This document shows positions 3,239-7,673 of a stretch of 64,000 nt of DNA, in pieces. The translations under genes were made by a program, and so were the position numbers. Source of the stretch: Sphingobacteriia bacterium (GTDB taxonomy: Bacteria > Bacteroidota > Bacteroidia > Chitinophagales > Chitinophagaceae); assembly GCA_947452295.1 (NCBI GenBank), contig CANGCK010000011.1, positions 1 through 64,000 of the forward strand, in the 5' to 3' direction. Within the stretch, counting starts at the first letter, position 1; each line of letters opens with the position of its first letter. Under the pieces are notes generated by a model. The model was not told the DNA's origin, did not search any database, and saw only the letters and a program-made list of their open reading frames with translations.

Positions 3239-3679
3239 ATGGCTGAAACTTTGGGAATGTTATGTGACAAATTAACTATTGTGAAATTAAAGCAATACCA
3301 TTCAGAAGACACAATTAGATTGCAATCACTTGATAATCAATGTGAACTACTTAAAAAAGAAATAAATGAATTTATAACCAATGCTGTATCAGGTCAAATA
3401 CCTGTTGAGAGATTAACTTTTGATAGCAATAAAGTATTCAAAAAAGAAGGTAATGATGTAAAAGAAGTGGTTGGGAATTTTGGGGAAGTTTTTTATCAAC
3501 TTGCAGATGTTAATTGCCAATTATGGCATGAACAAGAAAAAGTATATGAATTTGAACAAGTTCCTATGGAAGAAAAGGATTTAGTTGTTAAGCAATTGGC
3601 AATATTAAATCTACAAAGAAATAAATGCATAGATGCTATTAATATCATGTTTTTCAAGTTAATTACAGAATCAATTTAA
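3239..3679 (+). CDS. Small conserved protein of polysaccharide loci (DKLTI motif; possibly DUF4254/DUF6165-like)
   Basis: 146-aa ORF, MAETLGMLCDKLTIVKLKQYH..., immediately upstream of a C-methyltransferase; family assignment uncertain. Confidence 0.55.
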   Translation: MAETLGMLCDKLTIVKLKQYHSEDTIRLQSLDNQCELLKKEINEFITNAVSGQIPVERLTFDSNKVFKKEGNDVKEVVGNFGEVFYQLADVNCQLWHEQEKVYEFEQVPMEEKDLVVKQLAILNLQRNKCIDAINIMFFKLITESI

Positions 3680-3689
3680 ATTTTTATAA

Positions 3690-4949
3690 ATGCACGTAAG
3701 AAAAAGAACAACTTGCAGAGTTTGTGGATCTTCTTCATTAACTCCAGTTATCAGCTTAGGGCCTCAATTTCTTCAAGGCTCTTTTGTTAAACCAGGTAAG
3801 GAAGAACCCTCACACAGAAAAATAAATTGTTCATTAGTACGATGTAATCCACAAGTTGATGAAAATGCATGTGGCCTTCTGCAAATGGAGCATAGTGTAC
3901 CACCAGAGATATTATATGCTGCATATTGGTATAGGAGTGGAACCAATGCTACAATGAGAAATCATTTAAAAGAAATTGCAAATACTGCATTATCAATGGT
4001 CAATAAAAGTAGATGCAATGTTCTGGATATTGGCTGTAACGATGGCACTTTATTAGATGTATACCCTGCTGATTTTATAAAATTTGGATGTGATCCTAGC
4101 GATGTTGCGCAAGAAGTTAAAAATGCAACTGTAGTACAGGATATTTTTCCTTCTGCTGAACTATCATCTGCAATTGGTGAAAAGAAAATGGATATCATTA
4201 CTTCGATTGCAATGTTTTACGATTTAGAAAGTCCAGTAGATTTTGTGAAAAATATTAAAAAAATATTATCACCAGAAGGTATTTGGATTTTTGAAATGAG
4301 TTACATGCCTCATATGCTTGAATTAGATAGCTACGATACAATTTGTCATGAACATCTAGAGTTTTATAGTTTAGCTGTTTTAGAGAAAATTGCCGCTCTT
4401 GCTGGTATGAAAATCGTAAAAATTTCATTCAATGAAATCAATGGGGGTAGTATAAGATGTTATGCTACTCATAAAGAAAGTGGTAAGTATTACAATAAAG
4501 AAGATCATAAATTGATGAATGATATTCGTCAAAAAGAGTTTGATCTAGAACTTGATACCGATAAACCTTATGTAGCTTTTCAATACAGAATTGAAAAAGT
4601 TAAAAATGAGCTTACCGATTTATTGCAAAAATTAAAACAAGAAGGCAAAAAAGTTCATATTTACGGTGCTTCAACTAAGGGAAATACTATATTACAGTGG
4701 TGTAATATCAATAATATGTTGGTTGATTATGCCGCAGAAAGAAATCCTGATAAATATGGTGCACATACATTAGGTACAAATATCCCAATTATTAGTGAGG
4801 AAGAGAGTAGAGCAATGAATCCTGATTATTATCTTGTATTACCTTGGCACTTCAAAGCAGAATTCATAGAACGAGAAAAGGACGCACTAGAAAAAGGGAC
4901 AGGTTTTATTTTCCCTATCCCAATTATTGACATTTATAAGAAACATTAA
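3690..4949 (+). CDS. Class I SAM-dependent sugar C-methyltransferase (TylC3/NovU-like, Cys-containing N-terminal domain plus C-terminal C-methyltransferase domain)
   Basis: CRVCGSSSLTPVISLGPQFLQGSF, YWYRSGTNATMRNHL, VLDIGCNDGTLLDVYP, VHIYGASTKGNTILQWC. Confidence 0.85.
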   Translation: MHVRKRTTCRVCGSSSLTPVISLGPQFLQGSFVKPGKEEPSHRKINCSLVRCNPQVDENACGLLQMEHSVPPEILYAAYWYRSGTNATMRNHLKEIANTALSMVNKSRCNVLDIGCNDGTLLDVYPADFIKFGCDPSDVAQEVKNATVVQDIFPSAELSSAIGEKKMDIITSIAMFYDLESPVDFVKNIKKILSPEGIWIFEMSYMPHMLELDSYDTICHEHLEFYSLAVLEKIAALAGMKIVKISFNEINGGSIRCYATHKESGKYYNKEDHKLMNDIRQKEFDLELDTDKPYVAFQYRIEKVKNELTDLLQKLKQEGKKVHIYGASTKGNTILQWCNINNMLVDYAAERNPDKYGAHTLGTNIPIISEEESRAMNPDYYLVLPWHFKAEFIEREKDALEKGTGFIFPIPIIDIYKKH

Positions 4950-4972: not shown

Positions 4973-5680
4973 ATGCTGATCAAAAGAATAATTATTAAAA
5001 TAAAAAAAGCAATTGATACCATCTTTTTAATAGGGAAAGTTAGTTATGCTCAATGTGGTGAAGACTTAATTGCTGATTATTTTTTTGAACATATTGGTAT
5101 TACAAAACCATCATATATAGACATTGGTTCTAATCAGCCAATAAAAGGTAACAATACTTATTATTTTTATTTAAAAGGTGCTAATGGAATTTGCATAGAA
5201 CCAGATGTAACCATTATACCTATTTTAAAAAGTAAGAGACCCAGAGACATAGTATTAAATATTGGAATTTCTTTTGAAGATACTAAAGATGCAGATTTCT
5301 ATTATTTTGAGGGGCATTATAATGCTTGGAATACTTTTTCAAAAGCTGATGCTGAAATTAAAAAGAAAGAATCTGGAATCGAATATCATACTACTAAAGT
5401 TAATTTAGAAAATATTCAAAATGTAATAAACAATCATAATTTCAATAACGTTAATTTTATTTCTATTGATGTTGAGGGCTTAGATCTAGAAATTTTAAAA
5501 AGTATAAATTTTGAAATAGTTAGGCCAGAATTGATTTGTGTTGAAACCATATTATTTTCACTCGAAAATGGTATTAATAAAAATTATGAAATTACCAACT
5601 ATATGTTAAGTCAGAATTATATTGTTTATGCTGATACTAATCTTAATACTTTTTATTGTAGAAAAGATTTATTTCAATAA
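4973..5680 (+). CDS. FkbM family methyltransferase
   Basis: QCGEDLIADYFF...PSYIDIGSNQPIKGNNTYYFYLKGANGICIEPD...VNFISIDVEGLDLEILKSI. Confidence 0.85.
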   Translation: MLIKRIIIKIKKAIDTIFLIGKVSYAQCGEDLIADYFFEHIGITKPSYIDIGSNQPIKGNNTYYFYLKGANGICIEPDVTIIPILKSKRPRDIVLNIGISFEDTKDADFYYFEGHYNAWNTFSKADAEIKKKESGIEYHTTKVNLENIQNVINNHNFNNVNFISIDVEGLDLEILKSINFEIVRPELICVETILFSLENGINKNYEITNYMLSQNYIVYADTNLNTFYCRKDLFQ

Positions 5681-5683
5681 AAT

Positions 5684-6568
5684 ATGAAGAAGGCTATAAT
5701 TTTTGGTATAAATGGTCAAGATGGTTTTTATTTGAATAAATTATTAGTGACTAAAGGTATTAATGTAATTGGAATATCAAGAAATGGAGATTTTCTAAGA
5801 ACTAGTATTCATGATTTTGCAGAAGTTAAAAAGCTAATTGAATCTGAACAACCAGATTATATTTTTCATTTAGCAGCAAATTCAACAACAAATCACTCTG
5901 CACTATTTGAAAATCATCAAACTATTTCAACAGGAACTTTAAATATTTTAGAAGCAGTAAAAGAATACTCACCTAAAAGCAAAGTATTTATTTCTGGAAG
6001 TGGATTACAATTTATAAATCACAATATTCCAATAAAAGAAACCGATTTATTTGATGCAAGAGATGCATACTCTATAAGCAGAATTCAGTCTGTATATGCA
6101 GCAAGATATTTTAGAAATAAATTTGGATTAAAAGTTTACGTAGGATATTTTTTTAATCATGATAGTCCTAGAAGATCAGAACGACATATTGCTCAAAGAA
6201 TCATATCAACAGTTAAAAGGATTGCCAATGGAAGTAACGAAAAATTAATTATTGGCGATGTAAATACTGTCAAGGAATGGACTTTTGCTGGAGATGTTGT
6301 TGACGGGATTTGGTGTTTAATTAATAATGAAGATATTTTTGAAGCAAATATCGGTTCAGGTATTGGTTACTCAATTGAAAATTGGATTTCAATCTGTTTT
6401 GATTTTATTGGAAAAAATTGGAAAGATTCTGTTGAAATTCAAAGTGATTTTTTTGCTGAATATAAAATGCTTGTTTCAGACTCATCACTCATTCATTCAA
6501 TTGGATGGATTCCCAAAACCACTATTAATGAATTGGCTGAAATGATGTTAATTGAAAATAATGGATAA
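5684..6568 (+). CDS. NAD(P)-dependent SDR, GDP-mannose 4,6-dehydratase-like with non-canonical active site
   Basis: IFGINGQDGFYL (nucleotide-binding loop), YFFNHDSPRRSERHIAQRI (GMD-like FNHESPRR); YSISR instead of YxxxK. Confidence 0.8.
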   Translation: MKKAIIFGINGQDGFYLNKLLVTKGINVIGISRNGDFLRTSIHDFAEVKKLIESEQPDYIFHLAANSTTNHSALFENHQTISTGTLNILEAVKEYSPKSKVFISGSGLQFINHNIPIKETDLFDARDAYSISRIQSVYAARYFRNKFGLKVYVGYFFNHDSPRRSERHIAQRIISTVKRIANGSNEKLIIGDVNTVKEWTFAGDVVDGIWCLINNEDIFEANIGSGIGYSIENWISICFDFIGKNWKDSVEIQSDFFAEYKMLVSDSSLIHSIGWIPKTTINELAEMMLIENNG

Positions 6569-7673
6569 AGAAAAAATTTTATTAATTCAATTATTTTCCA
6601 ATGGCGATTGTTTATTTGCAACAACAATTGCATGTCAGATAAAACAAGATTTCCCAAATTGTAGTCTAATTTGGGCCATTTCTACAAAATGTAAAAACGT
6701 TCTGATAAACAACCCATTTGTTGATGAAATTTTGGAAATTAATATCCCAAACTCAAAACTAAATGAACACATATTTGAATCACTCGTTCATGAATCTTTA
6801 ATTAAAAAAAACAATAAAATTTATAAAGAAGTAATTGTGAGTCAATTACTCGGAGACAATTTAGCCTATTATGATAGTACAGTTTGTTCTTCTATATTTC
6901 GTTGTTTTAAATATCCAATTACTGTTGATACCAAACCAATAATTAATTTAACCAATCAAGAGGTTAAATCTGCAAGAGATTTTGCTTTAATTCATCAACT
7001 TAATAAATTTAAAAACATAGTATTATTTGAATGTGCTCCTCAATCTAATCAAATTAAATTGACAAATGAACTAATTTACGAATATTGCCTTAATATTATT
7101 AAACAAGATTCAACTTGTATTATTTTATCCGCTCCTAATGCTTATAATTTTAATAATTCCCATATCATTGATGGAAATACATTATCAATTAGAGAAACTA
7201 TAGCATTATCACAATTTTGCACCCATTTTTTAGGCTGTTCTAGTGGCATTTCATGGGCGTTAACAAGTAATTCTGCAAAAGAGTTACCAATGGTTCAATT
7301 ACTATCAACTAATGCATACTATTTCAATCCATTATCGTTAACCTTTAACAAACTTAATAGAAGTATTGATCATCTCATAGAATTAACGAAATATGATTCT
7401 GAAGTAATTGGAGAAATTTTTTATTCAATCTTTAATAATGGATTTTTAAAGACAAGAATTAAATATAATCAAAAAGTAAGTCCTCAATTTAAACTATATA
7501 GAGGTATTATTCATAAATTCATTAAACAAACAAAATTTTCATTAATATATAAATTCATTAGACTAAATCTTAAGGAAAATGGATTTAAACTTAATATGAT
7601 AAAGTTTATGTTACTAGGTTTCTTCTTATTTCCATTTGATTATATAAACTCAAAAATTACTAATAAAAGTTGA
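6561..7673 (+). CDS. Glycosyltransferase family 9-like (heptosyltransferase-like) protein
   Basis: KILLIQLFSNGDCLFATTIACQIKQDFPNCSLIW at the N-terminus and CSSGISWAL region; ATG at 6561 overlaps the previous stop. Confidence 0.6.
   Translation: MDKEKILLIQLFSNGDCLFATTIACQIKQDFPNCSLIWAISTKCKNVLINNPFVDEILEINIPNSKLNEHIFESLVHESLIKKNNKIYKEVIVSQLLGDNLAYYDSTVCSSIFRCFKYPITVDTKPIINLTNQEVKSARDFALIHQLNKFKNIVLFECAPQSNQIKLTNELIYEYCLNIIKQDSTCIILSAPNAYNFNNSHIIDGNTLSIRETIALSQFCTHFLGCSSGISWALTSNSAKELPMVQLLSTNAYYFNPLSLTFNKLNRSIDHLIELTKYDSEVIGEIFYSIFNNGFLKTRIKYNQKVSPQFKLYRGIIHKFIKQTKFSLIYKFIRLNLKENGFKLNMIKFMLLGFFLFPFDYINSKITNKS

Follow-up and report, generated by a model that had tools for sequence, protein, structure and literature searches.

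What reaction, if any, is catalysed by a protein that has the fold of GDP-mannose 4,6-dehydratase (GMD) but differs from it at the active site? The question is raised by an extended short-chain dehydrogenase (SDR) encoded in a 64,000-nucleotide stretch of Sphingobacteriia bacterium DNA (contig CANGCK010000011.1), the whole of which we call the window. A first-pass annotation had described the protein as GMD-like with three catalytic residues replaced, and offered as readings a pseudoenzyme, a binding or regulatory partner, or an enzyme with different chemistry. The features that bear on the answer are listed below; clade counts refer to 58 sequences, namely the window SDR and 57 relatives, or to the 56 in which the relevant alignment end is present.

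3239-3679, plus strand: DUF4254 protein, which opens the gene run (found in 27 of 58 loci)
3690-4949, plus strand: sugar C-methyltransferase of the TylC3/MtmC/TcaB9 type by its domain matches (PF08421, PF13489 and PF08484), the conserved partner
4973-5680, plus strand: FkbM family methyltransferase (profile matches to PF05050 and TIGR01444), ending 3 bp upstream of the SDR gene
5684-6568, plus strand: GMD-like extended SDR gene (294 aa), with Ser106-Tyr129-Arg133 and without the dehydratase Glu
5705-5725, plus strand: Rossmann glycine loop GINGQDG (aa 8-14); Arg33 lies downstream, in 55 of 56 clade rows
5999-6007, plus strand: codons Ser106-Gly107-Leu108, at the GMD Thr-Ser-Glu positions in alignments to solved GMDs
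6068-6082, plus strand: Y129-SIS-R133, YxxxR replacing YxxxK
6185-6187, plus strand: His168, aligned with the catalytic His179 of GDP-fucose synthase (Phe in GMD and RMD)
6272-6277, plus strand: Lys197-Glu198, aligned with the Arg-Asp motif of GMD and RMD
6561-7673, plus strand: GT9-like glycosyltransferase with a heptosyltransferase-like N-terminus (weak matches, below cut-off)

The SDR gene begins with an ATG, its reading frame is whole and it lies in a tight same-strand run with the DUF4254, C-methyltransferase, FkbM and GT9-like genes, the last of which has its ATG at 6561 and so shares 8 bases with the end of the SDR gene. More glycosyltransferase-like, acetyltransferase and epimerase genes follow downstream. 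A pseudogene was considered and rejected, since the frame is intact, close relatives exist and the gene run is tight. The first-pass annotation placed the gene between an FkbM methyltransferase and a GT9-like gene: the upstream neighbour is confirmed, but the GT9-like call is weak, at 22 bits. A homologue of this downstream gene occupies the +1 position in most Chitinophagaceae loci of the SDR clade. Beside the polysaccharide gene run, at 656-2578, the window also encodes a large secreted-looking protein with what appears by eye to be a gliding-motility/CHU-type C-terminal end.

By fold and homology the SDR belongs firmly in the extended nucleotide-sugar SDR superfamily, with the glycine motif, Ser/Thr and Tyr hallmarks present and Arg at the Lys position. 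It matches PF16363 (GDP_Man_Dehyd) at 164.8 bits (E 4.8e-48; cut-off 27 bits), and an AlphaFold2 model built on a 36-row alignment (pLDDT 94.9, pTM 0.92) finds its closest solved fold in 1n7h, the plant GMD with NADPH and GDP (Foldseek E 2e-27), followed by 1rpn and 2z1m, with the RMD structure 2pk3 ranking 30th. The protein shares with GMDs (PF16363, TIGR01472; 1n7g/1n7h, 1rpn, 2z1m, 1db3) 25-30% identity, the GxxGQDG loop, the FNH[DE]SPxR motif and the catalytic Ser/Thr and Tyr. It is, however, shorter (about 290 against 320-370 residues) and scores 133.3 bits against the gmd equivalog TIGR01472, below the 415-bit cut-off, whereas the two true GMDs of the same genome score 603 and 587 bits.

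Where the active site is concerned, the earlier view that the catalytic Thr and Glu of the STSE motif are both Gly reflects a one-residue slip in register. Alignments of the SDR with 1n7g (phmmer and hmmsearch) and with 1rpn and 2z1m (phmmer) are ungapped through the motif and pair KVFISGSGLQF of the SDR with KYYQAGSSEMF of the plant GMD 1n7g and RFYQASTSEMF of 1rpn. Read in this way, the catalytic Thr of GMD corresponds to Ser106, the next Ser to Gly107, the catalytic Glu to Leu108 and the Lys to Arg133; the supposed loss at the Thr position disappears, while those of Glu and Lys stand. Ser at the Thr position is ordinary among GMDs, occurring in the plant enzyme 1n7g and in 5/18 GMD rows. 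The other residue assignments of the annotation were sound: the catalytic Tyr is kept, Arg replaces the Lys of YxxxK, and both the GINGQDG loop and the FNHDSPRR motif are present.

These features are fixed in the clade. Ser106, Tyr129 and Arg133 are each found in 58/58 members, so that YxxxR stands where all 18 GMD rows have the Yx3K signature. Position 108 is Leu, Met or Val in 58/58 (Glu in 18/18 GMD rows) and position 107 is Gly, or Ala in 16/56. Gln109 and Phe110 never vary, nor does the GxxGQDG loop in the 56 sequences having that end. In GMD dehydration, Glu is the single extra catalytic residue beside the triad, [ST]SE..Yx3K (PMC8987622), so its loss makes 4,6-dehydration by the SDR unlikely. 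Arg33 suggests a preference for NADP.

The relatives were found by scanning 84,980 species genomes, which yielded 72 loci, 57 of them holding close relatives (49-70% identity, about 290 residues, two shortened by contig ends) and the remainder distant GMD-like proteins of at most 35% identity. The clade is found in Bacteroidota (mostly Chitinophagaceae), Acidobacteriota, Nitrospirota, Ignavibacteriota, Bdellovibrionota and the archaeon Methanolobus profundi. A profile search of 150 genomes of the family identified 14 at 382-509 bits, after which scores drop to 206 bits, and in a phylum-wide sample of 297 genomes only three carry the clade, all of them Chitinophagaceae; within this sample it is thus rare beyond the family. 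A 76-row tree (a quick search with SH-aLRT only, the few motif columns included) splits the clade from all other rows at a branch of SH-aLRT 100, with the GMD group adjoining it and RMD separate; the RMD rows 2pk3 and 6x3b fall outside it, 6x3b as a long branch. The expectation that the motif would define a clade is borne out in that there is one clade, but the pattern that marks it is S-[GA]-[LM] with YxxxR and not G-x-G with YxxxR. Such a conserved, monophyletic group speaks for a new function under selection and not for decay, and as judged from sequence the clade is a branch, not marked out before, of a known family of sugar-modifying enzymes, and of predicted non-dehydratase type. The scan also brought up a GMD-like family of about 320 residues with NAGSSECFG and YxVAK motifs (L003, from the window's own genome at C54:4907-5851, L096, L097 and L098), which lies under the gmd cut-off, at 332 bits for the own-genome copy, scores nearer the clade profile than GMD does and in L096 adjoins a true GMD.

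Changes elsewhere in the protein are equally fixed. The Arg-Asp of GMD and RMD (197-198) is Lys-Glu in 56/56 clade rows, the Arg of the C-terminal RPxE motif is deleted, and Phe168, present in 18/18 GMD and 15/15 RMD rows, is His in 56/56; the clade also has two new residues that never vary, His71 and Asn77. Both the Asn-His of FNH and Arg33 persist. In hhalign, His168 falls opposite His179 (1bsv numbering) of GDP-fucose synthase, which is an epimerisation residue (PMC3539893). In GDP-mannose 3,5-epimerase, binding of the diphosphate falls to R243, and R306 makes the Cys more acidic (PMC8787198); we take these to be the Arg-Asp and RPxE positions, a match made by motif and not by structure. 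The conserved Arg-Asp and RPxE Arg, which bind the NDP diphosphate in relatives, are changed or deleted here, so the carrier or its mode of binding may differ from that of GDP-mannose. The proposal that ligand binding is preserved was thus too strong: the Asn-His and Arg33 support it, but the changes at Arg-Asp, RPxE and position 168 suggest that substrate binding has been remodelled.

In classical SDRs, replacement of the catalytic Lys by Arg usually lowers activity strongly. Every class tabulated in a review of nucleotide-sugar SDRs has x3K (PMC8987622), and our literature search returned no paper on YxxxR in a short-chain dehydrogenase and nothing relevant on the Lys-to-Arg change. YxxxR nevertheless extends beyond the clade: the RMD/RMD-like set of 15 rows, partly drawn from the same loci, has Arg in 10, Lys in 4 and Ser in 1. 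The tree separates these YxxxR proteins from the SDR clade, so that the change probably arose at least twice; a single shared origin was considered but has no support in the tree. Because the second YxxxR group consists of relatives of a 4-ketoreductase, it lends indirect support to ketoreduction by the clade SDR. Like the SDR, RMD (2pk3, 6x3b) has a Ser-Tyr pair, and YxxxR occurs independently in RMD-like proteins of Bacteroidota; the 4-keto reduction of a GDP-6-deoxy sugar would be a further likeness. Unlike the SDR, RMD occupies a separate branch, keeps Glu/Asp after the Ser as well as Arg-Asp, and lacks the clade His. Since Glu/Asp is kept in 15/15 RMD rows, loss of the Glu is no mark of reductases as such. 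The Bacteroidota RMD-like proteins at L060 (+4), L061 (+3), L019 (-1), L022 (-1), L033 (+6) and L102-L107 carry GSSEEYG or variants together with Y[AG][VL]AR, and that of L108 reads YAVSS at the YxxxK site.

A further clue comes from the partner gene. A C-methyltransferase of the PF08421/PF08484 type is encoded upstream, in the same orientation, in 48/58 loci, or 48/51 with enough flank, including 7/7 loci with flank outside Bacteroidota, and in several distant members it is immediately adjacent to the SDR (-13 to 58 bp). Seven of the ten loci without it have less than 2 kb of upstream sequence; in L025, L046 and L062 it is truly absent in view. Among the 150 family genomes, the methyltransferase is present in 13/14 clade carriers against 26/136 others (p=5e-8). 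L046, the one locus with full flank that lacks the methyltransferase, has genes resembling a 2-oxoacid dehydrogenase acyltransferase and a phosphopantetheinyl transferase before its SDR, and at L047:5155-5859 a short protein of 234 aa with a weak Epimerase-domain match lies directly 5' of the clade SDR.

The solved relatives of this partner, MtmC, TcaB9 and KijD1, are sugar C3-methyltransferases. With the TylC3/MtmC/TcaB9/KijD1 enzymes (4rv9, 3ndi, 5t64) it shares a three-domain layout, a Cys-rich N-terminus and the Glu-His pair of the active-site stretch (E221, H222), but whereas they belong to antibiotic clusters the partner is found in polysaccharide clusters. Its residues 219-222 (window 4344-4355) read C-H-E-H; Cys219, present in 41/44 sequences, replaces the Tyr of MtmC and TcaB9 and may mark a distinct methyltransferase subfamily. 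C3-methyltransferase chemistry requires a 4-keto sugar and, afterwards, a 4-ketoreductase. The same pathway logic, in which the 4-keto group is needed and later reduced, is set out in PMC3539893. The 4-ketone of the methylated sugar must be reduced, and this is the step that the SDR would fill.

A 4-keto sugar could be supplied by GMD. A GMD-class match is present in 14/14 clade-carrier genomes against 97/136 others (p=0.02; 150 family genomes), and in 6/14 carriers the match is no more than 7 kb from the SDR, against 1/26 for C-methyltransferases where the clade is absent (p=0.004), a comparison in which the distances are taken from different genes and which becomes much weaker, at 3/14 against 1/26, when both are taken from the methyltransferase. 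At the level of loci, GMD is found in 15/58, including those of Methanolobus and an Acidobacterium, and none was seen within about 6 kb in the other 43. Co-occurrence with GMD favours a GDP-6-deoxy substrate but falls short of proof.

Taken together, these results point to an NADP-type non-dehydratase SDR, which we propose, with a probability of roughly 50%, to be the 4-ketoreductase of a pathway to C-methyl-branched GDP-6-deoxy sugars, the most likely of the readings considered. A true GMD encoded elsewhere in the genome would produce GDP-4-keto-6-deoxy-mannose; the C-methyltransferase (3690-4949) would remove the C3 proton beside the 4-ketone and add the methyl group of SAM; and the SDR, acting second in what would be a two-gene module, would bind the C-methylated 4-keto sugar and direct hydride from NADPH to C4. 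In this scheme Tyr129 would serve as proton donor and Ser106 would polarise the ketone, while Arg133 would take the role of Lys, binding the nicotinamide ribose and bringing down the pKa of the Tyr; Leu or Met in place of Glu would block C5/C6 elimination. The product, a GDP-6-deoxy-3-C-methyl-hexose, would pass to a surface polysaccharide made by the neighbouring glycosyltransferases. Against this, GMD could be supplying a fucose pathway instead, and in the window genome one GMD adjoins a GDP-fucose synthase gene. Of the readings offered at first pass, different chemistry, whether as reductase or epimerase, is the best supported, given the invariant Ser106-Tyr129 pair and NADP loop, the missing Glu, the new invariant residues and the linkage to a C-methyltransferase.

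It is also conceivable, if rather unlikely, that the SDR is a self-contained C4 oxidoreductase that oxidises GDP-mannose or GDP-heptose at C4 without dehydration, with C3 then methylated and C4 reduced by the same or another SDR to give a 3-C-methyl sugar whose 6-OH is retained. A C4-dehydrogenase would need just what is seen here, Ser and Tyr kept and Glu lost; a dedicated GDP-heptose C4-dehydrogenase, Cj1427, exists (PMC10680097), 3-C-methyl-D-mannose is a natural O-antigen sugar (PMC12961483) and most loci have no GMD nearby. The GMD-class match in every one of the carrier genomes, within 7 kb in six, argues the other way, and a free 4-keto intermediate passed to a separate methyltransferase would call for cofactor recycling. 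A slightly more doubtful proposal is a bifunctional C5-epimerase/4-reductase that would yield an L-configured branched sugar in the manner of GDP-L-fucose synthase (GFS/GMER; 1bsv, 1e6u), an enzyme that shares the Ser-Tyr pair and the epimerisation His. The invariant His168, at a position that is Phe throughout the GMD and RMD rows, and the likewise new and invariant His71 fit this. The resemblance is limited, however, by 22% identity (hhalign), by the Lys-to-Arg change and by the partner Cys109 of the synthase, which is Leu/Met108 here and makes ordinary two-residue epimerisation impossible; C-methylation, moreover, would leave C3 quaternary.

A catalytically dead SDR serving as a binding or regulatory subunit of the C-methyltransferase would account for the tight linkage of the two genes, for the replaced Lys and for the lost Glu, and a non-catalytic SDR partner exists elsewhere in MAT2B, which works with methionine adenosyltransferase. 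We consider this improbable, and the pseudoenzyme reading disfavoured with it: dead partners usually lose such residues, and a decayed site would not be expected to have kept the Ser106/Tyr129/Arg133 set, together with the glycine loop and Arg33, almost throughout six phyla, bacterial and archaeal. Least probable by far is an ordinary GMD with tolerated substitutions. The top sequence and fold matches are indeed GMDs, but no clade member has the catalytic Glu, the score is far under the gmd cut-off, and true GMDs are encoded in the same genome and sometimes at the same locus.

Automatic annotation will tend to label members of the clade GDP-mannose dehydratases, a label that is very probably wrong. 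The Ser-Tyr-Arg subfamily and the RMD-like case are natural exceptions to the Lys rule and offer a direct test of the role of Lys. For the C-methyl sugar virenose, whose pathway was modelled in PMC3539893, the 4-ketoreductase of the TDP route could not be confidently predicted; the C-methyltransferase link described here suggests which enzyme may carry out the reduction for C-branched GDP-sugars. More broadly, and more tentatively than for the 4-ketoreductase itself, we suggest that the clade may constitute a new enzyme class, a Ser-Tyr-Arg nucleotide-sugar SDR, of GMD-side origin independent of RMD, dedicated to reducing, and perhaps epimerising via His168, C-methyl-branched 4-keto sugars. 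If this is true, the SDR and its C-methyltransferase would form a mobile two-gene cassette that places branched sugars on bacterial and archaeal surfaces.
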